IMG/VR virus record: IMGVR_UViG_3300030329_000184
Location: 1 to 20,122 of that record
DNA: 20,122 bases
From: a virus
Strand: one strand, 5' to 3'
Of this stretch, positions 1-19,866 are shown piece by piece (positions within the stretch are counted from its first letter, which is position 1; every line of letters starts with the position of its first letter). The notes under the pieces were generated by a model. The model was not told the DNA's origin. It searched no databases and worked only from the letters and a program-made list of their open reading frames with translations. Both the position numbers and the translations under genes were made by a program.

Positions 1-1703
1 GAGCATTTTCACCTATACCTACTCCTTCAGCACCAGTTGTATTAGCATCCATTGCCTGTCTGCCAACTGCTACATTACCAGCGCCTGTGGTGTTTGCATA
101 TAAGGCTTGATAACCAACTCCTGTGTTGTTGGATGCTGTCGTATTGGCTTGTAAAACCTGTCTGCCCAAAGCTGTGTTACTTGCGCCTGTAGTATTAACT
201 AACATGGCTTCCCTACCAACTACAGTATTGTGATTAGCAGTAGTGTTTGCACTTAGAGCATCTGCTCCAATAGCAACATTGGAGTGTCCTGTGGTATTTG
301 CATCTAAAGCACCTTTACCAACTGCTACCATTTCCGAGCCTGTGGTGTTTGCTCCTAAAGAAGCATATCCAATGGCTGTGTTGTTATCGGCTGTGGTGTT
401 AGCATCTAATGCATTTCTTCCCACTGCCGTGTTGTTTGCTCCAGTCGAATTAGCGTTCATTGAATTTCGACCAATAGAAGTGTTTCCATCGGCTGTTGTA
501 TTGTTAGCTAATGCTTCTTCTCCTACTGCCGTATTGTGTGCGCCTGTTGTATTATCTAGCATAGCTAAATGACCAACGGCTACATTAGTTCCGCCAGTTG
601 TGTTTGCTCCTAATGCACCATAGCCCATTGCGGTATTCCAAGAAGCTGTTGTGTTTGCGTCTAGCGCTGTAGCACCAACAGCTACGTTTTTTGTTCCTGT
701 GGTGTTTGCTTGTAAAGCATCTGAACCTACAGCAGTATTATTGGCAGCAGTATTTGCTCCTAAAGCATCTGCTCCAATAGCAGTATTAGCATTGGTTGTA
801 GTATTAGCATCCAATGCCCTCATTCCAAGTGCCGTGTTTGCTACACCAGTTGTATTAGCAACCATTGCATCTTTACCGACTGCTACATTTGAATATCCTG
901 TGGTGTTTGCTGTTAAAGCACTTTTACCGACTGCCACATTATTACTTGCTGTGGTGTTTGCTAATAAAGCGTTTTTACCCATCGCAGTGTTGTTGTCTGC
1001 TGTTGTATTAGCATATAAAGCCGCATAGCCAACCGCAGTATTACCATCACCAGTTGTATTACCACCAAGAGCCTCTTGACCAAATGCTGAATTATCACCA
1101 CCAGTTGTATTAGCATCTAGTGATTGATAACCAAAGGCATTATTATTAGTACCTGTAGTATTTGCCGCTAATGCACTTGTACCAACTGCCGTTCCTGTAC
1201 CTGTGGTGTTAGCCTTTAAAGCCTCCGCACCAACTGCTGTGTTGTTTGAAGCAGTTGTATTAGCTTCTAAAGCACTTTGACCAAAAGCCGAATTAGATGC
1301 TCCTGTGGTATTTGCTGTTAAAGCATTATATCCCATACCTGTGTTGTTATTAGCTGTAGTATTCGCATCAAGAGCGTATGTTCCCACGGCTACGTTTTGT
1401 GTTCCCGAAGTATTTGCACCTAATGCTTCAGCACCAATGGCTGTATTGTTGTCTGCTGTTGTAGCTGCATCCAAAGCTTGGTATCCCACTGCAACATTTC
1501 TTGCACCAGTTGTTGCTAACAACAAAGCTGCACTACCAACGGCAACGCTGGTTGTTCCAGTTGTTATTGCACCACCTGCATTGTCTCCCACTGCGGTATT
1601 GTCCGATCCCGTTGTAAACGCATCAAGGGCGTTCTCCCCTATGGCTACATTATCCGTTCCTGTGGTCATGGCTGTACCGAGCGATCCAGAACCTAGACCG
1701 ATA
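1..1703 (-). repeat. 51-bp in-frame tandem repeats of the fibre gene
   Basis: About 33 imperfect copies of a 51-bp unit encode NTAVGxxALxANTTGxx. The GCxxxTACxACxGG core of each unit is conserved while third positions and the two variable dipeptides drift. A few units are 48 bp (for example near 1190 and near 750), so length changes are whole codons. The array is coding and continues past the left edge. Confidence 0.9.
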
Positions 1704-2128
1704 TTGCCTGTACCGCCTGTCATATCGAGGACATCAGTTACGGCAGCACCTGCTCCCGCGCCATCGGCAACCACCATCTTAATTCCGCCATTCGGAATAA
1801 CGACATTAGCGCCTGTGCCTTGAGATATTGTTACTTGATAACCCGCACTATTTTGAATAATCCACGTTTTATTAACGGTATTCGGTGCGAGAGTTACTGT
1901 ATTGGTTGCGGTGATTGAGCCTGCTAAAGTTAAAGCGTAGGCCCTGGCAGCATCGGATGTGCCGTCTGCCATCGTAATAGTGTGGGAAGTCCCGGTAATG
2001 GTTTCTGAACCAGATCCCCAGGCTTCTGCAATGAGTTCTAAATTTGTATTGGTGCTTGTGCCCCAGGTTCCCGATTCGTCACCTGTAGCAATTTCTTTTA
2101 ATCGTAAGTCGTTTACATAGGTTGCCAT
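1..2128 (-). CDS. Tail fibre / appendage with YadA-like head repeats, 3' end outside window
   Basis: The ATG is at 2128-2126 and the frame is read to the left edge without a stop at every place checked, giving at least 709 codons. Residues 1 to about 140 form a non-repeated N-terminal domain (MATYVNDLRLKEIATGDES..., a TWGTSTN segment, an HTITMADGTSD-like segment). This type is common at the base of marine phage fibres and probably attaches to the virion. From about residue 142 the protein is an array of about 33 repeats of the form NTAVGxxALxANTTGxx, usually 17 residues, occasionally 16. The pattern resembles the left-handed beta-roll of YadA-type adhesin heads. I infer a long trimeric stalk or fibre for host adsorption. 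A GAGG Shine-Dalgarno lies 7 bases before the ATG. The receptor-binding C terminus, if any, is outside the window. Confidence 0.85.
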   Translation of the reverse strand, partial: MATYVNDLRLKEIATGDESGTWGTSTNTNLELIAEAWGSGSETITGTSHTITMADGTSDAARAYALTLAGSITATNTVTLAPNTVNKTWIIQNSAGYQVTISQGTGANVVIPNGGIKMVVADGAGAGAAVTDVLDMTGGTGNIGLGSGSLGTAMTTGTDNVAIGENALDAFTTGSDNTAVGDNAGGAITTGTTSVAVGSAALLLATTGARNVAVGYQALDAATTADNNTAIGAEALGANTSGTQNVAVGTYALDANTTANNNTGMGYNALTANTTGASNSAFGQSALEANTTASNNTAVGAEALKANTTGTGTAVGTSALAANTTGTNNNAFGYQSLDANTTGGDNSAFGQEALGGNTTGDGNTAVGYAALYANTTADNNTAMGKNALLANTTASNNVAVGKSALTANTTGYSNVAVGKDAMVANTTGVANTALGMRALDANTTTNANTAIGADALGANTAANNTAVGSDALQANTTGTKNVAVGATALDANTTASWNTAMGYGALGANTTGGTNVAVGHLAMLDNTTGAHNTAVGEEALANNTTADGNTSIGRNSMNANSTGANNTAVGRNALDANTTADNNTAIGYASLGANTTGSEMVAVGKGALDANTTGHSNVAIGADALSANTTANHNTVVGREAMLVNTTGASNTALGRQVLQANTTASNNTGVGYQALYANTTGAGNVAVGRQAMDANTTGAEGVGIGENA

Positions 2129-10754: not shown

Positions 10755-11234
10755 TTAATAATTATGCAGAATTGCTTCTGGGTCGTTTACTTTCGCAATG
10801 ATTTCGTCATCGTTCAATATTTTGACTTCGCCACCTTCTATATCAAAGCGGGAACCAGCATATCGCCCAAACAAAACCCAATCCCCGGCTTTACACCAAG
10901 GACCTGTTGGAAACTTATGTTCATCTTGATAAGCGAGTTCACCTGTTTTTAACACATAACCAAGGACCGTGGCTATTTGTTGGCGCTCTACTGTTTTTTC
11001 TGTCAGGTATATGCCGCCATCTGTTTGGCCTTGTCCACGATAAGGGAGAATGAGAATGCGCCAGCCGGTTGGATCTGGAAGTTGGTCTAATAGATCAGAA
11101 GACAGTTTTTCCGGATTAAGTTTTTCCTTATCCGTCTTCTTGCTGCCAACTTTTTCGTAGGCTTTTTCTAAGGGAGACTTACTAGCCTCCTCTTGCGCCC
11201 ATTTCTGTTCAAGGGCGGAAGTTGCGTCACTCAC
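10755..11234 (-). CDS. GroES-like co-chaperonin (cpn10)
   Basis: This 159-aa protein is longer than the usual 95-110 aa. Residues 1-50 are a charged helical extension absent from bacterial GroES. Residues 57-155 form the cpn10 domain: GWRILILPYRGQ, a mobile-loop segment TDGGIYLTEKTVERQQIATV in which GGIYL stands where GroES has its GroEL-binding Gly-Gly-Ile-Val-Leu, VLGYVLKTGELAYQDE, and GDWVLFGRYAGSRFDIEG. It should cap the host GroEL to aid folding of phage proteins, as T4 gp31 does. The start is GTG, with AAGGAG supplied by the last codons of the upstream small gene 4 bases away. Its place before the scaffold fits capsid folding. Confidence 0.88.
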   Translation of the reverse strand: MSDATSALEQKWAQEEASKSPLEKAYEKVGSKKTDKEKLNPEKLSSDLLDQLPDPTGWRILILPYRGQGQTDGGIYLTEKTVERQQIATVLGYVLKTGELAYQDEHKFPTGPWCKAGDWVLFGRYAGSRFDIEGGEVKILNDDEIIAKVNDPEAILHNY

Positions 11235-11439: not shown

Positions 11440-12759
11440 TTATCCAGTGTTCCTATTCGACTGTTTCCAAGCTTCCCAAGACGATTTATCTTCTGGGGAA
11501 ACAGCCCTACCATAGTTTAAGAAATCGTCCCAGGAAATGTTTGTTCCTGTGGGATATAGGTCTGCTCCAGGCGTTGTAGGTATATCAAAACTATATTGTG
11601 CTGCGTCACCAAGATTTAGTCCTGCTATTCCTTGGGGTGTAGAGGCCCCGGTTGTGCCTGCGGTTCCTCCACCAAACGGCGTCGTTCCAGCAAATTGGTT
11701 GCCGCCTAACATACTATAAGGGTTTACAGCCCCATAAGGGTTTGTTGGAAAGCTTCCGGGGGTGTAGGGTTGTGTAAAGTTCATAGTTGTGTCTACAGGA
11801 GGTGTTGAATCCTCTGGGCTCACTCTTCCACCAGCCCCTTGCATAGCTGCGGCTATTGCGGAGTTAATTGCTCCGCCTTCCCCTAAAGCAGCATCAAGAG
11901 CAGCTTGCACAGAAGCATCCACTCCTTCCTGTCCCAAATACCCAGACTCTCCCATCATTTGCTGAATTTGCTCTTGTGTCATGTAACCGGAGTCACCAAG
12001 CATTTGTTGTACTTGGTCCATGGTCATGCCTCCAGCCATAGCTGCATCAATCATCTGTTGAACGGCGTCTTGGGTTAGGTCTTCCTCGCCCGCGGTCATA
12101 CCTTGAATAGCTGCATCAATCATTTGTTGTACTGTCTCAGGTGTTATTCCCTCAACAGGGTTCGCCGCTAAATACTCCGCAATCATGTCTTGTATTTCTT
12201 GTGGGGAAAGTCCGTCCATTAGGGCCTGGTTAATCATTTCCTGGATTTGCTCTGTTCCCGGCAATGCTTGAGTGGCGTCACCAATCATCTGCTGTACCTG
12301 TTCTGGAGTAAGGGCGCCTCCCGTTGCATCCATAATCATTTGTTCAATTTCTTCGGGGCTAAGTCCACGAGCCATAGCGTCATCTATCATTTGCTTAATC
12401 ATGTCTTGTCCCACAAACTGTTCCGCCTGTTGTTCCCAGTCCTGTAGGCTCATATAGTTGTCAAGGCCGAGACCCCCAAGTGCGTCGCTTATGGCGGACT
12501 GCACGTCCCCTGTTTGAGCATAGCCGCTTAGATCGGGCTGTTCTCCTGCCAAGGCTTGAAAATAAGGAGAACCAGCAATTTGTTCAAGAACCGTGTTTAA
12601 ATATTCTTCTTTTAATGTGCCGTCCGGGTTTAAAAATGATTCCGCCCCCGCCAAAGCATCGGGGGGAGGACCTTTTGGGTCCCCAATTTTAGGGTCCCTG
12701 TCGTGTTTAGGCGGATCATATAAAGGATCATCAAAAGGGTTTTCGTAAGAGATTGGCAT
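11440..12759 (-). CDS. Helical-repeat protein after the portal, unknown function
   Basis: This 439-aa acidic protein has a Pro/Asp-rich N terminus (residues 1-40), which may be a binding tail. About ten short helical repeats follow between residues 118 and 290, with consensus LTPEQVQQMIDAAMxxG and unit length 15-23 residues. A Gly/Pro/Thr/Asn-rich low-complexity part lies at about 310-400, and the C terminus is WDDFLNYGRAVSPEDKSSWE. The repeats are rich in Gln, Met and Ala, with no Cys and no membrane segment. It starts one base within the stop of the portal gene (TAATG), so it is coupled to it. I do not recognise the family. A portal-associated, internal head or ejection protein is the most natural guess from its place. 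Confidence 0.75.
   Translation of the reverse strand: MPISYENPFDDPLYDPPKHDRDPKIGDPKGPPPDALAGAESFLNPDGTLKEEYLNTVLEQIAGSPYFQALAGEQPDLSGYAQTGDVQSAISDALGGLGLDNYMSLQDWEQQAEQFVGQDMIKQMIDDAMARGLSPEEIEQMIMDATGGALTPEQVQQMIGDATQALPGTEQIQEMINQALMDGLSPQEIQDMIAEYLAANPVEGITPETVQQMIDAAIQGMTAGEEDLTQDAVQQMIDAAMAGGMTMDQVQQMLGDSGYMTQEQIQQMMGESGYLGQEGVDASVQAALDAALGEGGAINSAIAAAMQGAGGRVSPEDSTPPVDTTMNFTQPYTPGSFPTNPYGAVNPYSMLGGNQFAGTTPFGGGTAGTTGASTPQGIAGLNLGDAAQYSFDIPTTPGADLYPTGTNISWDDFLNYGRAVSPEDKSSWEAWKQSNRNTG
11890..12410 (-). repeat. Coding repeats of a Gln-Gln-Met-Ile helix unit
   Basis: About ten degenerate units of 45-69 bp encode (L/M)(T/S)(P/Q)(E/D)x(I/V)QQM(I/L/M). The DNA of the units differs in many third positions while the protein core is kept, which points to selection on the repeated helix rather than very recent duplication. 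The last two units before residue 275 (QQMLGDSGYMTQ and QQMMGESGYLGQ) are the closest pair. Confidence 0.75.
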
Positions 12760-15236
12760 TATTTTCCTTTGTTTTTAGCTTGCTCCATTTTTTCACGGGA
12801 AACCTGTGCTCTAAGGGCTGCAATGTCTTCTTGACTTCGCATCTTCTCTTCGTCGGTTTCTTCCCGTACATTCATTTTTTCTCGCTCAAGGTCTAATTTC
12901 TCTTCAGCGATACGTTTATCGTCTTCGTTCTCTTGTGATCTTATCATAAGTTCCTGTTGTTTCAATTCCAACACACCCTCATTGCCTTGAGGAACCTCCA
13001 TCACTTCATTGATTCTCGGCATTAGTTCTTCTAATAAGTTCGCTTCTACCTGTGCTTTAAGTTCTTCTCTCACAGGGTTAGGCGGCATGGGTTGTGAGGT
13101 TCCTCCGCCGCCTTGTTGTAACATCATTTGCTGTTGCTGCATCATCTGTTGCTCTTGCATCAACTGTTGTTGTAGTTGTGGGTCCTCTTGCGCCATTTGC
13201 TGTAGTTGTTGTTCCGCGATCTCTTCAGCTTTAAAGGCAACGTGTTGAAAAATATCTGATAATAAAGACGTTGCCACCATGGGGTTCATTGTAGCCATGG
13301 GGTTTTCTAAAAACGTGATGTGCGACTCAATGTGCGCATCGTGGTCTTGTTCCGGAAACGCCTGTAAAGGTGCGCCCATTAAAGCGGCAGCATTTTCTAA
13401 AGCCGGGCTTGTGGGTTGCGGTGGAGGTGGATCAGGCAAGATCAGCGTTTCAATGTTCTGTGAACCAAGGGCCGTGTACATTCGACGATACGCTTCTTTG
13501 ATGTTGTGTATGTCTGGGTTGCTTTGTACCAACTGTAGTTCTTGTTGCGCCAAAGAAATACGTTGAGCAAAAGAGAAAAAGTTTGGATCAGAGACCGGAA
13601 TAACATCAACACGACCGTCAAAGTCCTGTTGCTTAATCATTTGATTTCCACCAACAACCTGATAAGGGTATTCTGGTGGAAGAAACTCTGAGAAAACTCT
13701 AGCTAATATTCTAAATTCTGTCTTTTGCGCATAATGCAGTCGTTTGTGAACCGCGGACATGACCTTGGTCCCCTGTTCCATGAGCGCTAACGTTGTTCCG
13801 ACTGCCGCTTGGTCATTACCTTCGCCCACTTGCATGTCTGTAATGGCAGCGAAGCGCTGACCGGCTTCAACACAAAAGCCCATTAATTGAAACAGAGTTC
13901 CACTTGGCTCTTTATAAGGGAGAGGCATCAAAGAATCTTTTAGCGCTCCGCCTGGTGCGTCTACGTCTCTAAATTCTCCGGGTTCTAAAGGTGTCTCATC
14001 GTCTCTTATTCTTATGCCCCGAGCTTTAAAACCGGCGGGGAGGTTGGACAGGGTTCCTGCGTCTATGAGTTGTCTGAGGGCCGCTGTTGCGGTTCGAGAG
14101 AGTCCTCCGATCATGTGGATTAAACCAAAGCCGTAGAAACCCAGTCCTGGGAGAAACTTGTAGTGTACAAAATAAGGTATTTTTCTTTTTTGTGGGTCGT
14201 TTTCATAATAGTTGCGTCGAATAGAGAGCACCTGACTAGACGTTCTGTCAATAGTTATAATGAAAGGCAGGTGTAGCCCATCTGAATCTTCAAACCCCGG
14301 CATTTCCATTGAGACATGAAACTCCAGCAGTTCATACATCATGTCGTTGCCCGAACCGCTAATGCCCTCGATCTCTTCGACTTTATCTTGGGTCACTGTT
14401 TGGGTACTGGTGTAGGTTGGGGTAATTTCTATGTCTCGATAAAATCCGGACAACTGTTGACTACGAATCTCATTGTAGTTCATTTTTACAATGTGCGTAA
14501 TTCTTGGGCAAGTTTCCAAATCACTGGCCGCATACGGCACCACTAAATCTTCAACCGGAACAAATTTGCTAACGGCTCTTTGCAAAGAGGGATCGTAGTA
14601 AACTTTTTTGAAAGCAGAACCGGCAAGGGGTAAATAGAACAGCAATTGGTCCATTTCCGGTGTGTATTCTTCCATGACACAAGTAATCTCATAATTCATA
14701 AACTCGCGCACACGATCGGACTGCGCTTCAACTTCCGGAGTAGCTAGTCCAATAATTTCTGTTTTTACCGGACCCTGTGCAGGGAGCAGTTCTTTGAACG
14801 CTTGCGCTTGAAATTGGGTAACGGATTCCGCTAATAGGGGGTGGGTAACACCGCTTGCGCCCGGGAACGGTCGATCGCGGTCTTCGTATTTAAACCCGAG
14901 AAGATCCAGTCCTTTGACATAGGCATCTTCCCATTCGTCACGGCTCATGCGGTCTTCTTCAAAATCACCGAGGAGTTGCGCCGCTATTGCTCCAAGTTCC
15001 GACTCATCTATATAATCAGCTAGGTTGGCGTTAAAAGGAATCATCGCCTCAACATTCATTTCATCCGGGGCATAGTCCAGAACCGCGCTGCCGTCTCGCG
15101 CAAAACTAACTTCTACGTCTCCGCCTTCAGGAATAGGTTCGTCGATCTCGACCTCTTGTCCGGCTTCAATATCCAGATCAATAAGGTCCGTGACCCGATC
15201 AATGTTGGTCGGCTTGTTGATTTCCTCGAATGCCAT
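12759..15236 (-). CDS. Portal protein, P22-like long type
   Basis: This 825-aa protein is close in size to P22-type portals (about 725 aa). Residues 1-70 are acidic. The clip/stem-type core starts near residue 70 with SELGAIAAQLLGDFEEDRMS and RDRPFPGASGVTHPLLAESV (residues 120-139). Further on are YELLEFHVSMEMPG, KIPYFVHYKFLPGLGFYGFG and GTLFQLMGFCVEAGQRFA. A Met/Gln-rich stretch at about 675-712 (QQQQMMLQQGGGG) and a charged coiled coil at about 750-820 resemble the C-terminal barrel of P22 portals that reaches into the head. It forms the dodecameric DNA gate that receives terminase. Family assignment rests on size, layout and position after terminase. The start lacks a strong ribosome site. 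Confidence 0.8.
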   Translation of the reverse strand: MAFEEINKPTNIDRVTDLIDLDIEAGQEVEIDEPIPEGGDVEVSFARDGSAVLDYAPDEMNVEAMIPFNANLADYIDESELGAIAAQLLGDFEEDRMSRDEWEDAYVKGLDLLGFKYEDRDRPFPGASGVTHPLLAESVTQFQAQAFKELLPAQGPVKTEIIGLATPEVEAQSDRVREFMNYEITCVMEEYTPEMDQLLFYLPLAGSAFKKVYYDPSLQRAVSKFVPVEDLVVPYAASDLETCPRITHIVKMNYNEIRSQQLSGFYRDIEITPTYTSTQTVTQDKVEEIEGISGSGNDMMYELLEFHVSMEMPGFEDSDGLHLPFIITIDRTSSQVLSIRRNYYENDPQKRKIPYFVHYKFLPGLGFYGFGLIHMIGGLSRTATAALRQLIDAGTLSNLPAGFKARGIRIRDDETPLEPGEFRDVDAPGGALKDSLMPLPYKEPSGTLFQLMGFCVEAGQRFAAITDMQVGEGNDQAAVGTTLALMEQGTKVMSAVHKRLHYAQKTEFRILARVFSEFLPPEYPYQVVGGNQMIKQQDFDGRVDVIPVSDPNFFSFAQRISLAQQELQLVQSNPDIHNIKEAYRRMYTALGSQNIETLILPDPPPPQPTSPALENAAALMGAPLQAFPEQDHDAHIESHITFLENPMATMNPMVATSLLSDIFQHVAFKAEEIAEQQLQQMAQEDPQLQQQLMQEQQMMQQQQMMLQQGGGGTSQPMPPNPVREELKAQVEANLLEELMPRINEVMEVPQGNEGVLELKQQELMIRSQENEDDKRIAEEKLDLEREKMNVREETDEEKMRSQEDIAALRAQVSREKMEQAKNKGK

Positions 15237-15241
15237 TGGTT

Positions 15242-15418
15242 TTAGTAAACGCCAGTAAAGTTGGTGCCTCTTTCCGCTGACTTTCCGCCTCTTGACTTAC
15301 CTTTGCCGGCGCCGGGCTGTGGTCCCTTGCTGGTTTTCATCTCTTTGGTTTTCGCGTAAGGAACAAAGCCTTGGCCTTTAATGTCTAAGCCTTTAACGAT
15401 TTTAGGTGCTTTCGCCAT
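15242..15418 (-). CDS. 58-aa basic small protein before the portal
   Basis: The ATG is at 15418-15416 and TAA at 15244-15242, encoding MAKAPKIVKGLDIKGQGFVP and then a Lys/Gly/Ser-rich tail (GKSRGGKSAERGTNF). A clear GGAGAG site lies 7 bases before the ATG, and the portal gene begins 5 bases after the stop, so this is a real gene although it is short. The protein is strongly basic and probably disordered. A DNA-binding or head-filling helper role is possible. Similar small basic proteins occur next to portals in marine phages, but I know of no function. Confidence 0.7.
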   Translation of the reverse strand: MAKAPKIVKGLDIKGQGFVPYAKTKEMKTSKGPQPGAGKGKSRGGKSAERGTNFTGVY

Positions 15419-15515: not shown

Positions 15516-17384
15516 TCATTCGTTTGCCAGTCTTCCAAATAAATTTCTAATCCAAGCCCTCTCAATGGCTTTTCTTCTCGAAGCGTCTTTTTCCTCCGCA
15601 ATGGCCTCTAATTCAGCCAAAATTTCTTCTTCTTCTGGGTATCTTTCGTAAGCAGTCGTTGCTGCATAGGTTCCAAGAATACTCGGAATCCCCCCTGCAA
15701 TTTTTGCTTTTGTTAGCAGCGGTTTTAAGTCTTGGCGACGCATCCAATTTTTGTACCATTGCGCCTTTGCTTTTGCCGATCTTTCGGGGTCGACTTCCCC
15801 TTTTGTCCTCACCCTAAATTGTTTGTTGTTATCCTTTAATTGGTACACTTCACGGCCACGAGAACCTTGACGAGCAAGGTCTTGACTTATTTTTATTTGC
15901 ATTTTTATTTCGGCTTTGCGAGTAATGTACTCATCTCTGGACAATAAACCAGATTTGTACAACTCCTCTATTTTGTTTAATGCCTCTCTTGGGTCCAATC
16001 CAGTTATTGCATCACCAGCTAAAGTACCTATTACAGGGCCTCCGCCGCTGTAATTTGTGATGAGGCCGCCCAGTCCTTTTTTGGGTATTTTTGGTGCTTG
16101 CTTATAGGGTTGTGGACGACGGACCATGGACCCACTGTCTCCACTGACGTATTCAAAACCGTTTGCCTTATACCATTTTTCTAATCTTTTTTGGCTGCCT
16201 TTCTCAAATTTCTTTGCAAACTCCCCTGCTTTTTCTCTCTGTTTTTTGTACGCGTCTGTAAAAGTTGTGTTTCCTGCTTTTCTATCCAATTGCCCAAAAT
16301 GGTCCTTTAATGTCCTCATTCTTTCTGTTTTCCAACTGGGAAAGTACACAGGTGACATGTGAACCTCAATTCCTAGTCTGTCTAAAACAGGGCCTTTTAT
16401 TTTGTTTATGAGTTTTTGAGCACCTACCGGAGTATGAGAACGCAACGACGCCACACCGAACTGGTTGTTTATGTCCGGGTACATATTCATTCTAATAACC
16501 GCATCTGCCATGCCGTCTTTACCACCAAGAACAATTTCCATTCCTAGGTCTGGGTTGCTTGTAAATCCGTCTATGTTGTCAAATTTTCCTGCGCTATGTG
16601 CTTTGTTGTGAAAATATATTTTTCCTTCCTCTAAAATTTGTGGGTCTCTTTTTCCAGGCGCTCCTTTTAATGGAACCATACCAAACTCTTCTAACTCATC
16701 TACTACTTTGCGCATGTTATAAAGCACCCCTTCAACGTCTTCGAGTCCTTCATAAAGCTGGGTTCTGGAGTTATTAATATAGTCGTCGGCAACATCCATG
16801 TAATCGGTCAACTGTTCTTTGGTGCCCACTTGCCAAGGGGTGCCCACGTCCTCTAAGGATCGTTTCGCCACGCCTTTTTGTTTCTCGAAAGCCTGCATTG
16901 TTTCTAATAAAGACCTTCTTTCCAGTTTTTCAGAGCCTTTGCCCATTTTTCCGGCACGCACCAGTCTTTTAATCTGTTTTTCAATAAAGGGGGTCCCTTT
17001 TAGGGCCATCACCCCTGATTTTGCCATTAGTTCAGGGTTGGCCAAACCGCCCATCAATTCTCCGAGTGTTTCCAATCCGCCGCCTTCTCGCTCCAAACCC
17101 ATTTTCTCGGCAAACCATTCGCCCCCGCCCACATTGTCTTCTGAAAACCAAGGCTGGTCTTTCATAAGGTCTCGGGTTCTGGGGTCCACCTTTAATAAAA
17201 TTTGTCCGAGGTCCATGGGCAGACCGGCTAATAACGGAACGTTCCGAGCAATGCCTCTGCCTAACTGTCGGTATTCTTCCGACTCTCGTGCAAGGGCTTC
17301 TCTTGTTTGATCGGGGCCCACGCCATACCTACTGAAGAAAGGTGCCAGTAGTTCTTGATCGCGTTTTTCTTGTTCTGTTGCCAT
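15516..17384 (-). CDS. 622-aa composite protein with acetyltransferase-like and SHOCT-like parts
   Basis: This protein lies between terminase and portal and shares one base with the terminase stop (TAATG). Residues 1-130 include RGIARNVPLLAGLPMDLGQI and a WFAEKMGLEREGGGLETLGE stretch, a type of start seen in large marine phage proteins. Residues 120-240 are charged helices. Residues 290-425 run from DAVIRMNMYPDINNQFGVAS through a helical KAGEFAKKFEKGSQK part to LEKWYKANGFEYVSGDSGSM, which resembles the closing motif of GNAT or phage polyvalent enzyme domains. GLGGLITNYSGGGPV links to NKIEELYKSGLLSRDEYITR (about 465-485), a good SHOCT-type motif. The rest is basic. I do not know its function; an injected or head-internal enzyme is conceivable. 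Confidence 0.7.
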   Translation of the reverse strand: MATEQEKRDQELLAPFFSRYGVGPDQTREALARESEEYRQLGRGIARNVPLLAGLPMDLGQILLKVDPRTRDLMKDQPWFSEDNVGGGEWFAEKMGLEREGGGLETLGELMGGLANPELMAKSGVMALKGTPFIEKQIKRLVRAGKMGKGSEKLERRSLLETMQAFEKQKGVAKRSLEDVGTPWQVGTKEQLTDYMDVADDYINNSRTQLYEGLEDVEGVLYNMRKVVDELEEFGMVPLKGAPGKRDPQILEEGKIYFHNKAHSAGKFDNIDGFTSNPDLGMEIVLGGKDGMADAVIRMNMYPDINNQFGVASLRSHTPVGAQKLINKIKGPVLDRLGIEVHMSPVYFPSWKTERMRTLKDHFGQLDRKAGNTTFTDAYKKQREKAGEFAKKFEKGSQKRLEKWYKANGFEYVSGDSGSMVRRPQPYKQAPKIPKKGLGGLITNYSGGGPVIGTLAGDAITGLDPREALNKIEELYKSGLLSRDEYITRKAEIKMQIKISQDLARQGSRGREVYQLKDNNKQFRVRTKGEVDPERSAKAKAQWYKNWMRRQDLKPLLTKAKIAGGIPSILGTYAATTAYERYPEEEEILAELEAIAEEKDASRRKAIERAWIRNLFGRLANE

Positions 17385-18883
17385 TAATAATATTCTTTTC
17401 TAGGGGGTTTATAATCACTGTCCATCAACTCATCTGATTCTAAAGCAATAAAGCCGCCTTGTCGATAACGCATCAGGGCTTGCGTGGTCGAATCCACCAA
17501 GTCGTCGTGGTCGCCAAAGGGAAACGCAGCGCATTCTTCAATCACCTCATCAGCCCACCGCTTGTCCGGGGCCCAGACCATACCGGCTTCTAAAAGTGGG
17601 GAAACGGTATTGACTCGGGCAATTTTATCCTGTCCTTTGTTCGGCGAATAATTGAGCACCGGTATCCCGGTTTGCCGCAATTCGTGGGTGAGCGGCATCC
17701 CACTGGCCTTGGCTTCAATAATCACAATGTCCGGTTCCCAATACTCGTATTGTTCAAAAGCTTCGTTTTTAAGTTCCGGAAAATTCCACCGCCCTTTGCG
17801 AGCATCGAGCAACAATAAGTTCGGTTCGCCGCCCTCTTCGGGGTAGAACACGCACCATGTCGTGATGGCTGAGAAATCCGCTGTTTCTTTCTTACTAAAC
17901 GCGGTGTCGTAACTTTGTATGACAAACTGCATGTTGGGCACCCGATCCTCTTCCCAAATCTTCCACCACTCGCGTTTTAGGATCGCGCCTTCATCGGAAG
18001 TGGGGTTTTGCATCCACTGGGCTTCCCATTTGGACACCGGAATCGAAGCTTTTACCCCCTCCAATTCGGGCAAAGTCCAGTATTCGGGCCATAAGGCGTC
18101 GTTACTGGGCATAATGGCTGGAAATTCCACCACTTCCCATTGGTCGGCGTGCTCTTCCACCTGTTTACTGAGCAGTCTTCCGGTTAAATCTTTAGTGCTC
18201 CAACGCGTCATCACGATAATAATAGCCCCACCGGGCTGTAATCTTTGTCGTGGTCCTGAAGAGTAGTATTCCCAGGCATTGTCCAGAGCCGTTGGGGATA
18301 ATGCGTCTTGTTCCGAGTGAATGTCATCGAGAACCAGAATATCCGCACCACGACCCGTGACCGCACCGCCAATACCCGAATAAAACGCCTCGCCGCCGCC
18401 GTTGGTTTCCCACCGTCCGGCAGATTTACTGTCCGCTTTAAGCGCCACGCCCGGGAAAACCCCTTGATAATCCTCCGAATCGATCAAGTCCCTGACCCGT
18501 CGTCCAAAACGAAAGGCCAACTCCGCGGTGTGCGTGATTTGCATGATTTTTAACTTCGGATCGCGGCCCAAGGCCCACGAGGGGAAGTAAGTGGAGGCAA
18601 ATTCAGACTTCGTGTGTCTGGGTGGCATGTTAATAATCAGTCGTTTTAGCTCTCCACGAGCCACTTGTTCGAGTTTTTCAGCAAAAATCTGGTGGTGTCG
18701 CCCTTCAATAAAATCAGGCCACATGTGTTTTACATAGGTTAAAAAACTATCCTGCCCTTCGCGCTGTAGTGTTTTGGCTTTCAGCGCTTCTTGAAGGCCC
18801 AAAAGCTCTTTGGCGGCGTCCGGGTAAAGTTCGGACAGTTTTCCGGTGTCTATGTTAGTCGCAGACTTTGCAGACTTCGGCAT
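17384..18883 (-). CDS. terL: Terminase large subunit
   Basis: This 499-aa protein is of full family length and drives genome packaging through the portal. The N-terminal ATPase has a Walker A variant PPRHTKSE (residues 87-94), a Walker B ILVLDD (182-187) followed by HSE, and the coupling motif MTRWST (225-230). The C-terminal RNase H-like nuclease shows Asp326 in QSYDTAFSK, Glu390 in DIVIIEAKASG and the GDHDDLVDST Asp cluster (457-466), so all expected acidic residues are present. It belongs to the Terminase_6/gp17-like group. The start overlaps the upstream 53-aa gene by 29 bases, with only a GGTGG ribosome site. It should act with a small subunit, not recognised here. Confidence 0.96.
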   Translation of the reverse strand: MPKSAKSATNIDTGKLSELYPDAAKELLGLQEALKAKTLQREGQDSFLTYVKHMWPDFIEGRHHQIFAEKLEQVARGELKRLIINMPPRHTKSEFASTYFPSWALGRDPKLKIMQITHTAELAFRFGRRVRDLIDSEDYQGVFPGVALKADSKSAGRWETNGGGEAFYSGIGGAVTGRGADILVLDDIHSEQDALSPTALDNAWEYYSSGPRQRLQPGGAIIIVMTRWSTKDLTGRLLSKQVEEHADQWEVVEFPAIMPSNDALWPEYWTLPELEGVKASIPVSKWEAQWMQNPTSDEGAILKREWWKIWEEDRVPNMQFVIQSYDTAFSKKETADFSAITTWCVFYPEEGGEPNLLLLDARKGRWNFPELKNEAFEQYEYWEPDIVIIEAKASGMPLTHELRQTGIPVLNYSPNKGQDKIARVNTVSPLLEAGMVWAPDKRWADEVIEECAAFPFGDHDDLVDSTTQALMRYRQGGFIALESDELMDSDYKPPRKEYY

Positions 18884-19016: not shown

Positions 19017-19197
19017 ACTTCTCTCTCCTTTTTATTTCTTTTTTATATTTATGGATTAATTTGGGTTTAGTGTTTGGGTTTTCTATTGCTGCAAGGAGGT
19101 CTTTCATCGAAGTGGCTTTAATATAATTGTGTTGAACCTTGGTGATTCCGGTTCGTCTGTTGTAGAGTTTTTCCGTCGGCTTAAATTTAGTCGGCAT
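19006..19197 (-). CDS. 63-aa basic conserved phage protein
   Basis: MPTKFKPTEKLYNRRTGITK is followed by QHNYIKATSMKDLLAAIE and a Lys/Arg-rich helix (KPKLIHKYKKEIKRREKYVL). I recall closely similar small proteins (KFKPSxKxYxRxTG ... YIKATSxKEL) in many pelagic phage genomes near terminase, with no known function. The strong positive charge suggests nucleic-acid binding. It overlaps the end of the HNH gene by 11 bases and the start of the 53-aa gene by 11 bases, so it is part of a tightly coupled packaging cluster. No Shine-Dalgarno is visible, which fits translational coupling. Confidence 0.7.
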   Translation of the reverse strand: MPTKFKPTEKLYNRRTGITKVQHNYIKATSMKDLLAAIENPNTKPKLIHKYKKEIKRREKYVL

Positions 19198-19639
19198 TTT
19201 CTTTATTGTGTACTACGTTTTTGCACCACCAGTAGAACTCACTTTCTCCCAAGGTGTGCTTCATTGTGTTTATTCGTTGTGTCACTAATTGGACGTTTCC
19301 TATTATATACCCTTTGTCCGAATTTTTCCTGTCAATACTGATATTAAGGTCCTGTCGTCCTTCGCCCCCGTGCCACGTCATAAACACCCCGGATAGCGCA
19401 CAGCGTCCCTCCTGTTTGTGCCAAAGACACTTAACGTGGTCCAAATCAATGTCCCATTCCCTATCTTTCCGCGCAGCTTTGAGTTTGGAATAAACCACAG
19501 CGACATAGGATTCAGGGGAACTGTTGCGGGCTTGGTTTCTTTGTAGGGAAGTACAGCGTCGGCAGACATTGCGTTTTTTAGTGTAGTCATCTTTTTGTAG
19601 CTCTCGTTTACAAGTAATGCAGGTTTTTGTTTTTCCCAT
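19187..19639 (-). CDS. HNH endonuclease with zinc-finger N terminus
   Basis: From the ATG at 19639 the protein has 150 aa; a TTG six codons upstream is possible but less likely. Two Cys pairs, CITC (residues 7-10) and CRRC (26-29), form a probable zinc site. A helical middle leads to the nuclease core: GRCALSG (78-84), the His-containing MTWHGGEG, then NISIDRKNSDKGYIIGNVQL, the typical Asp-Arg and Gly-Asn signature of HNH enzymes. It lies three genes before terL. HNH proteins beside terminase are known to be needed for cohesive-end cutting in HK97-type phages; a free-standing homing nuclease is the alternative. No ribosome site precedes it. Confidence 0.8.
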   Translation of the reverse strand: MGKTKTCITCKRELQKDDYTKKRNVCRRCTSLQRNQARNSSPESYVAVVYSKLKAARKDREWDIDLDHVKCLWHKQEGRCALSGVFMTWHGGEGRQDLNISIDRKNSDKGYIIGNVQLVTQRINTMKHTLGESEFYWWCKNVVHNKENAD

Positions 19640-19866
19640 GTTTTTTAGTATACACAAATTTTTCCGGGGACCAGGGACTCCTAGAAAAAAATATAAAATT
19701 TTTCTGAGTAGGGACTCCTAACAAAAAAGTGCCAAATTTTTTCACCTGAGAATTTATATCTCGATCTTTCTCTTATAGTCAGACCCCAGGCGCGAGCGGT
19801 GAGCGGCGGGAAAAAGTTTTGTGGCCATAAAAACTGGATGAATGTTGCGCAATAGGATCCCCATAT
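19640..19866 (-). promoter_or_regulatory. Leader region of the packaging/head gene block
   Basis: This noncoding stretch holds the direct repeats (19656-19742), a TATAAA and a TATAAG at about 19750-19780 that could be -10 boxes, and a GC-rich patch at 19790-19810 with GAGCGG twice. A TATACT at 19652-19647 lies only 7 bases before the HNH ATG. No good -35 box was found for any of them. Because every gene to the left is co-oriented without a long gap, the late promoter most likely sits here. Confidence 0.4.
19656..19742 (-). repeat. AT-rich direct repeats of 37-40 bp in the late leader
   Basis: AAATTTTT occurs at 19656, 19696 and 19734 (plus-strand left ends), and GGGACTCCTA occurs at 19674 and 19711, so at least two units share the order A-tract, T-tract, TAGGAGTCCC when read on the minus strand. 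The block stands between the terminator of the previous gene and the HNH start. It may be a promoter or regulator array, or part of a packaging site. Confidence 0.6.

Follow-up and report, generated by a model that had tools for sequence, protein, structure and literature searches.

What a phage keeps between the genes for its terminase and its portal protein is the question raised by the virus fragment analyzed here, a stretch of 20,122 bases (IMG/VR record IMGVR_UViG_3300030329_000184, hereafter the window). As a preliminary description of the window had stated, an open reading frame (ORF) for a 622-amino-acid (aa) protein lies between these two genes; it is on the minus strand (Table 1). 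That the ORF is a genuine gene is shown by the 16 further IMG/VR contigs that encode its central domain. Its ATG overlaps the terminase stop codon (TAATG). We give an even chance to the reading that the 622-aa protein is a polyvalent-type phage effector, located in a hypervariable terminase-portal cargo slot and delivered by the virion. The more surprising result is not the protein itself but a pattern of short C-terminal tags that recurs throughout the slot.

Structure prediction gives the central domain (about residues 241-425) a GNAT fold, and the likeness to acetyltransferases that had been proposed for this region is borne out at the level of the predicted fold. The full-length model was poor (predicted local distance difference test, pLDDT, 45; predicted template modeling score, pTM, 0.31; alignment of 15 sequences), and its Foldseek rows were already mostly acetyltransferases and isocitrate lyase 2. 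The model of residues 216-432 (md8525b5ef898; 16 sequences) reached a pLDDT of 72.3 and a pTM of 0.75, with the order three long strands, helix, strand, two inserted helices, helix, and two short strands. When this model was compared with the PDB by Foldseek, 37 of the 50 listed rows were acetyltransferases or N-acetyltransferase complexes, some of which (e.g., GCN5, GmvT, and AtaT) are acetyltransferases by our own assignment, and 13 were isocitrate lyase 2, whose C-terminal domain is presumably GNAT-like. With VIA, all 50 listed rows had a GNAT fold, some by our own assignment, at Z scores of 5.7-6.8 (303 chains at Z of at least 5), all below 8, a level at which likeness can be a common arrangement; NatD scored 6.8, RimI 6.7, Elp3 6.6, GCN5 6.3, and the anti-CRISPR AcrVA5 6.0. 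We accepted the fold because the class of the VIA rows was uniform, despite these middling scores. The segment WYKANGFEYV...MVRRP, from which the enzyme domain had been guessed, is present from W404 to P424, and Y405 of its L..WY...G pattern is unchanged in all 16 aligned domains, which would fit a catalytic tyrosine but proves nothing.

Besides the level of the Z scores, several observations weigh against the GNAT assignment, and with it against the reading that we favor. The best Foldseek E-values were 0.02 with the full-length model and 0.044 with the domain model. No GNAT family was found in Pfam at E ≤10 with the whole protein or with the domains of six relatives, nor in a PDB profile search with the central domain. 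GNAT enzymes bind coenzyme A (CoA) by a loop with the motif Q/R-x-x-G-x-G/A; the loop reads here S-[HN]-T-[PA]-x-G-[GA]-Q, with the conserved G and G/A and no Q/R at the first position, so that the canonical motif is degenerate and not clearly kept. Since no sequence profile matched, we filed the domain as GNAT-fold and not as a member of a named GNAT family. It resembles the GNAT acetyltransferases (NatD, RimI, GCN5, Elp3, and AcrVA5) in its fold and in the conserved L..WY...G segment, but differs from them in that identity in the structural alignments is about 7-22%, the loop is degenerate, a long helical insertion is present, and the activity is putative. As for the whole protein, there was no match beyond chance in PHROGs, none among PDB sequences, and none at E ≤0.01 among 50,697 phage records; a tape-measure PHROG (E 0.076) and the Pfam family Erp_C (E 0.11) were put down to chance.

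The word composite, already applied to the protein, proved apt. IMG/VR was scanned with the 622-aa protein and with central-domain profiles, which yielded the 16 contigs (L005 and L023 being one contig), and modules were compared in 17 forms, the window included. Twelve of them stop soon after the central domain with a KKGLGGLI...LRRP-type tail (e.g., KKGLGGLITNYKANLRRP, KKGLGGLIDKTNMLR, and KKGMGGFIDSPLYLRDY); two (the window and L002) run on into a 177-aa cassette bearing a SHOCT-like segment, two (L013 and L020) into another one, about 290 aa long and again ending in KKGVGGLISTHNTRLRRP, and one (L016) is truncated where its contig stops. The 622-aa protein is thus modular, with a GNAT-fold domain followed by C-terminal cassettes that are exchanged at one site among relatives. 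DNA alignments show the SHOCT cassette as about 570-580 bp of inserted sequence at a single site, with nearly identical downstream flanks between the window and L007 and between L002 and L003, and closely similar upstream flanks. In L008, whose terminase is only 64% identical to that of the window, the same cassette forms a free-standing gene of 166-167 aa right after the terminase. The Gly-rich stretch KKGLGGLITNYSGGGPV (residues 435-451) does exist, but the alignments of long and short forms identify it as the C-terminal end of the short form and not as a linker.

The SHOCT-like motif IEELYKSGLLSRDEY is present at residues 472-486, inside a PF09851 match that covers profile positions 1-27 of 28 (E 1e-4 to 9e-5). 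The match reaches 22.3 bits with the whole protein, below the gathering score of 27, and 22.6 bits with the cassette alone; two of three cassette homologues match at E ≤1. Being carried by only two of the 17 forms, the segment is an optional cassette and not the fixed tether of a multidomain protein that had been suspected. The best Pfam matches of the other cassette were ART-PolyVal and DUF3990 (E 0.0016-0.026, below cut-off). No third contig carrying it was found, nor any counterpart among PDB sequences; tblastn against phages gave seven records at E 0.3-0.8, all of them large-genome enterobacterial phages. Neither the SHOCT cassette nor the L019 domain had a tblastn match among phages at E ≤1. 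The domain-profile scan of the prokaryote genome collection, which is seeded with short peptide patterns and would overlook remote relatives, returned 41 pattern matches, with none confirmed. The N-terminal region is of the same kind in all relatives uncut by a contig end (L007 is cut there, and L013 partly) and is itself mosaic, L005/L006 combining an L003-type N terminus with an L020-type remainder. Its description as a marine-phage-type N terminus holds insofar as it is conserved among the 16 relatives, but no wider family was found in Pfam, PHROGs, or phage records.

We surveyed the slot in 156 terminase loci (100 plus 56 new ones), drawing on two IMG/VR terminase scans, each of which kept its best 80 loci, hence samples. 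The first set joined 80 scan loci, 19 earlier ones, and the window, giving 100 loci with a terminase and 90 with a portal downstream; where no portal was present (10 of 100 loci in the first set, 8 of 56 in the second), scoring went on to the contig end, and genes were greedy longest-ORF calls with unrefined starts. The terminase-portal interval is a hypervariable slot. Its length goes from none to 6.2 kb, and 27 of the 90 portal-bearing loci have an interval of less than 150 nt. The terminases of L040 and L041 are 99.1 and 98.2% identical to that of the window and are followed by a different slot protein (best BLASTP E 0.6 between the L040 and window proteins; both loci fall outside the window group at E 1e-4), and L043, with a terminase 77.5% identical, has no slot protein and a gap of 1 nt. 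These comparisons bear on the idea that the 622-aa protein has a structural role, belongs to the ejection channel, or completes the head, its GNAT-like fold being catalytically dead. Its place beside the portal, the degenerate CoA loop, and an N-terminal region predicted at low confidence to be largely helical would agree with this, and so would its size and variability, large variable proteins being typical of podovirus ejection proteins. Yet slots are nearly empty in more than a quarter of the portal loci, L043 among them, and filled with dissimilar proteins in others; the slot protein is therefore not a conserved structural part, and we consider a structural role distinctly unlikely. The slot of L099 (1594-5345) holds five ORFs against two in many relatives, but this sequence contains ambiguous bases and some ORFs may be frame-broken pieces.

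Among the slot proteins, 98 of 108 representatives were compared with Pfam (all but L020 and nine short proteins), and at least 76 of the 98 had no match (22 listed matches at E ≤0.01). A 1367-aa slot protein (L061) matched a cell-wall hydrolase (E 1.9e-7; 32.1 bits for a cut-off of 27), and TAT_signal-like matches occurred in five of the 98. Such twin-arginine-like hydrophobic motifs, below threshold, lie inside large slot proteins (L061 12405-16508, L070 4362-7925, and L135 5096-8599), and separate slot genes of L046 and L058 begin with MNRR(A/S)F(L/I)K. The relatives by terminase (57-62% identical) that are cultured or named are the pelagiphages HTVC027P and HTVC023P, together with 023Pt_psg01 and DSL-LC04. 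Their slots, which occupy the same interval as the 622-aa gene, hold proteins of 483 and 892, 201, 615 and 751, and 825 aa, respectively; the last one matches PcfJ in Pfam (E 5e-9; 36.5 bits for a cut-off of 25). HTVC027P gp41, HTVC023P gp30, and the 615-aa protein of 023Pt_psg01 have GG(L/M)-type tails. These proteins differ from the 622-aa protein in showing no tblastn similarity to it (E ≤0.01), and they are annotated as hypothetical or, in DSL-LC04, PcfJ-like. Homology between the TAT-like gene of L058 and HTVC027P gp42 was not confirmed by BLASTP (E 0.21), and the portion of PMC12753301 that we consulted does not mention the slot genes gp41/gp42.

Packaging of the 622-aa protein and its delivery with the DNA are probable, judging from the position of the gene, the company of ART-like, PcfJ, and cell-wall-hydrolase proteins in the slot, and published reasoning on polyvalent proteins. 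An enzyme made in the infected cell and never packaged, with tags serving stability, localization, or complex formation there, would account for part of the data, as the start-stop overlap with the terminase only suggests co-expression with late genes and a GNAT-fold enzyme needs no packaging. This seems quite unlikely to us: the other kinds of slot proteins just named, with one or two cases each, fit virion delivery, and packaging has been argued for such phage proteins (PMC5512222).

The ends of slot proteins recur across loci, as (A/S)GG[LI]A.MLGE, GGLP.ILGV, GGLATMF..KR, EGGIASLNVKKK, and GP.PQGL.SL.KR; in slots L040-L175, many dissimilar, mostly Pfam-dark proteins carry such lineage-specific tags, e.g., GGLARMLGE, GGLATMFKEKR, and EGGIASLNVKKK. 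When complete ORFs of at least 120 aa were grouped by BLASTP, 14 of 40 slot groups had GG[IL] within their last 15 residues, versus 3 of 179 groups formed by the other genes of these loci, although the motifs of this first set were defined after viewing the tails and its p-values are post hoc. With definitions unchanged, GG[IL] was recovered in the 56 new loci in 37 of 75 slot proteins versus 1 of 225 others (by group, 5/12 versus 1/49, p 0.0007). Even in new groups non-homologous to the first set, the stricter motif was found in 3 of 10 versus 1 of 30 (p 0.042) and the looser one in 6 of 10 versus 3 of 30 (p 0.0033). We also compared proteins from different loci without detectable body similarity (BLASTP E above 0.01): at least 9 of the last 18 residues were common to 143 of 11,442 slot pairs versus 4 of 179,384 control pairs, counts that are not independent events since the phages are related and that include the single contig L005/L023 twice. 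The tag is about 11 residues long. In a 50.6-kb relative (G001), in which ORFs of at least 60 aa were taken from three pieces, it occurred only in the slot gene and, as a loose tail, in one 62-aa ORF. Small proteins near the slot (window 15242-15418, minus strand; L008 4362-4571) have another type of ending, RGTNF.G.(Y/F), and similar tails, as.G.KF.G, are seen in genes outside the slot in L010, L045, and L054.

Tails of this kind could be a by-product at the DNA level, carrying the ribosome-binding site of the next gene or a recombination junction in body swaps. Of 24 ends in LGE, 15 are indeed encoded by GGAGAA or GGAGAG immediately ahead of the next start codon (GGTGAG, GGGGAA, or GGTGAA in the rest), and the final GE codons of the tags may double as a ribosome-binding site. 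Tail similarity also rises with terminase identity, at least 7 of 18 tail residues being shared by 0.2% of pairs at 60-65% identity and by 17% at 90-100% (Spearman 0.11, 10,629 pairs). The GG part, however, is separated from the stop by about 25-30 nt, GGAGG arises in only 15 of 88 GG tags, GGA is under-represented at the first Gly relative to background, and several tagged genes (e.g., in L003, L014, and L019) have no immediate start codon after them. Identical tail residues used the same codon with a frequency of 0.475 versus 0.418 expected from codon usage (459 pairs), so that the tag is conserved at the amino-acid level. We consequently hold a DNA-level origin to be very improbable. Given that tail sharing rises with relatedness and that none of the 78 pairs from one phage had a shared tail, the tags look lineage- and position-specific.

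Slot proteins might also be homologous throughout, with bodies diverged or swapped in the middle beyond recognition and ends as the best-conserved segments. Single-link grouping joins 21 of the 90 slot proteins of at least 120 aa, and the identity of 138 tag-sharing pairs (67 proteins, 53 loci) fades gradually, from 68% over the last 12 residues to 28% at positions 13-18 and 12% at positions 19-40, before reaching chance (6%) at positions 41-60. N termini are shared too: at least 9 of the first 18 residues are common to 45 of the 11,442 slot pairs versus 9 of the 179,384 control pairs, and the top tag-sharing pair, L125/L126, also has look-alike N termini. The strongest listed N-terminal pairs are mostly second-slot proteins starting like MKIHEYNEMMAYL.RP. 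Second-slot starts of the type MK(I/V)(H/S)EYN.MMAY(L/M).RP were noted, in many pairs without body similarity, in L112 4233, L124 3572, L125 3990, L144 4232, L161 2349, and L168 8003. On the other side, only seven pairs share at least seven residues at both ends, GGLARMLGE is common to proteins ranging from 149 aa (L099) to 870 aa (L141), and the tail excess persists when any BLASTP hit at E ≤10 is excluded (119/10,663 versus 3/177,777). The L040 protein and the L019 member of the 622-aa family are best aligned in their last 19 residues (IVKKTGGGIMSGPLYSRDF versus IPKKGMGGFIDSPLYLRDY, E 0.011). Even if true, moreover, conserved termini over unrecognizable bodies would call for a binding partner. 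Two accounts suit the N-terminal sharing: address signals carried at both termini, or old families whose ends are conserved while their middles change fast. This sharing led us to give slightly more weight to common ancestry, which we nevertheless judge somewhat unlikely, and less to tags that address cargo.

That last reading would make the interval a standing cargo bay, in which the right lineage- and position-specific C-terminal tag would secure, for any effector bearing it, loading into the HK97-fold prohead and ejection into the host. The 622-aa protein would be a GNAT-fold cargo to whose tag a SHOCT-bearing module was added later. We propose it tentatively and regard it as rather unlikely. 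Besides the N-terminal sharing, two further facts speak against the delivered-effector reading that we favor: the ART-PolyVal-like matches of L020 and L013 reach only 19.6 and 15.7 bits for a cut-off of 31.2, and the tag is internal in the 622-aa protein, so that a strictly C-terminal function would pass to the cassette's own end. Under this favored reading, to which we give an even chance, the 622-aa protein would be made late and enter the prohead, where its N-terminal region and/or its tag may bind a head component (coat, scaffold, or portal), and would then be ejected with the DNA; its GNAT-fold domain might modify a host target in favor of the phage. SHOCT segments have a role in oligomerization, which the SHOCT-like cassette would add. 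If tags act as addresses, their partners would be expected to co-evolve by lineage.

Table 1. Features of the terminase-portal slot in the window, with the modules of the 622-aa protein
Feature	Position	Strand	Evidence
Terminase large subunit, bounding the slot upstream	17384..18883	-	phrog_38 E 1.3e-108; Terminase_6C
622-aa composite protein (N-terminal helical region, predicted GNAT-fold domain, KKGLGGLI tag, SHOCT-like cassette)	15516..17384	-	ORF listing; 16 related contigs
N-terminal region, residues 1-215	16740..17384	-	Kept in relatives; low-confidence prediction of a mainly helical structure; mosaic between relatives
Predicted GNAT-fold domain, residues 241-425, with helical insertion before the last helix	16110..16664	-	Model of residues 216-432; Foldseek, VIA
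Residues 432-445, KIPKKGLGGLITNY	16050..16091	-	C-terminal tag of the short form, internal here; long/short form alignments
Optional C-terminal cassette, residues 446-622	15519..16049	-	Alignments of relatives
SHOCT-like segment, residues 467-493	15906..15986	-	PF09851 at E about 1e-4 (22.3-22.6 bits for a gathering score of 27)
ORF of 58 aa ending in RGTNFTGVY, between the gene for the composite protein and the portal	15242..15418	-	DNA kept in relatives
Portal protein, downstream border of the slot	12759..15236	-	phrog_1216 E 2.8e-62

Elsewhere in the window, a gene for a GroES-type co-chaperonin (10755-11234, minus strand; Cpn10, E 2.6e-10) lies among the head genes, and GroES is annotated in HTVC023P and DSL-LC04 as well. 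The protein that leaves the window end (2-2128, minus strand) carries many NTA(V/I)G..AL repeats and is probably a fibre; long plus-strand ORFs across the same positions resemble shadow frames. A 156-aa ORF (19187-19657, minus strand) with CxxC pairs and an IDRKN...GN segment looks by eye like an HNH-type endonuclease and has no Pfam match at E ≤0.01.

As a polyvalent-type effector, the 622-aa protein would be of a kind already known. For polyvalent proteins of portal-terminase phages, packaging and delivery have been argued, and one GNAT family among them usually neighbors an ART domain, according to the parts of the publication that we could consult (Iyer et al., 2017, PMC5512222). The 622-aa gene resembles their genes in being flanked by terminase and portal and in encoding a putative multidomain protein with a predicted GNAT-fold domain. 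L013 and L020 pair this domain with an ART-PolyVal-like one (below cut-off) in a single polypeptide, and the window pairs it with a SHOCT-like segment, also below cut-off. The differences are that the GNAT domain is here undetectable by sequence profile, that SHOCT has no occurrence in the main text of PMC5512222, and that a fixed terminase-portal site with a repeated tail motif is undescribed in the portions of that paper at hand. With SHOCT PF09851, the likeness extends to 27 of 28 aligned profile positions, but the segment described here stays below the gathering score, is followed by 129 residues, and belongs to an optional cassette.

No announcement of such C-terminal tags was found among the matches listed from the openly licensed PMC literature, judged by the opening parts of their abstracts. 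A parallel is offered by encapsulins, whose shells are assumed to have evolved from phage capsids (PMC8346489) and whose targeting peptides, with the consensus SDGSLGIGSLKRS, load cargo into an HK97-fold shell (PMC8346489, PMC7925596), as stated in the sections of these papers that we consulted. Both are short C-terminal peptides, rich in Gly, hydrophobic, and basic residues, on otherwise dissimilar proteins, but the slot tags are putative addresses and their resemblance to the encapsulin peptides is weak and mostly compositional. Slot tails scored higher than the tails of other genes against the encapsulin core LGIGSLKR (Mann-Whitney U test by group, p 0.0096), with a mean of 12.8 versus 11.4 for shuffled slot tails; as composition explains most of the resemblance, we rejected an identity of the tags with encapsulin targeting peptides, and the parallel is one in principle and not in sequence. 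If the cargo-bay reading were true, a block of unannotated dark genes in a marine podovirus group would be interchangeable delivered effectors, the tags would provide short peptides with which targeting of a protein to the inside of a phage head might be tested, and the terminase-portal slot would be the tailed-phage counterpart of encapsulin cargo loading.

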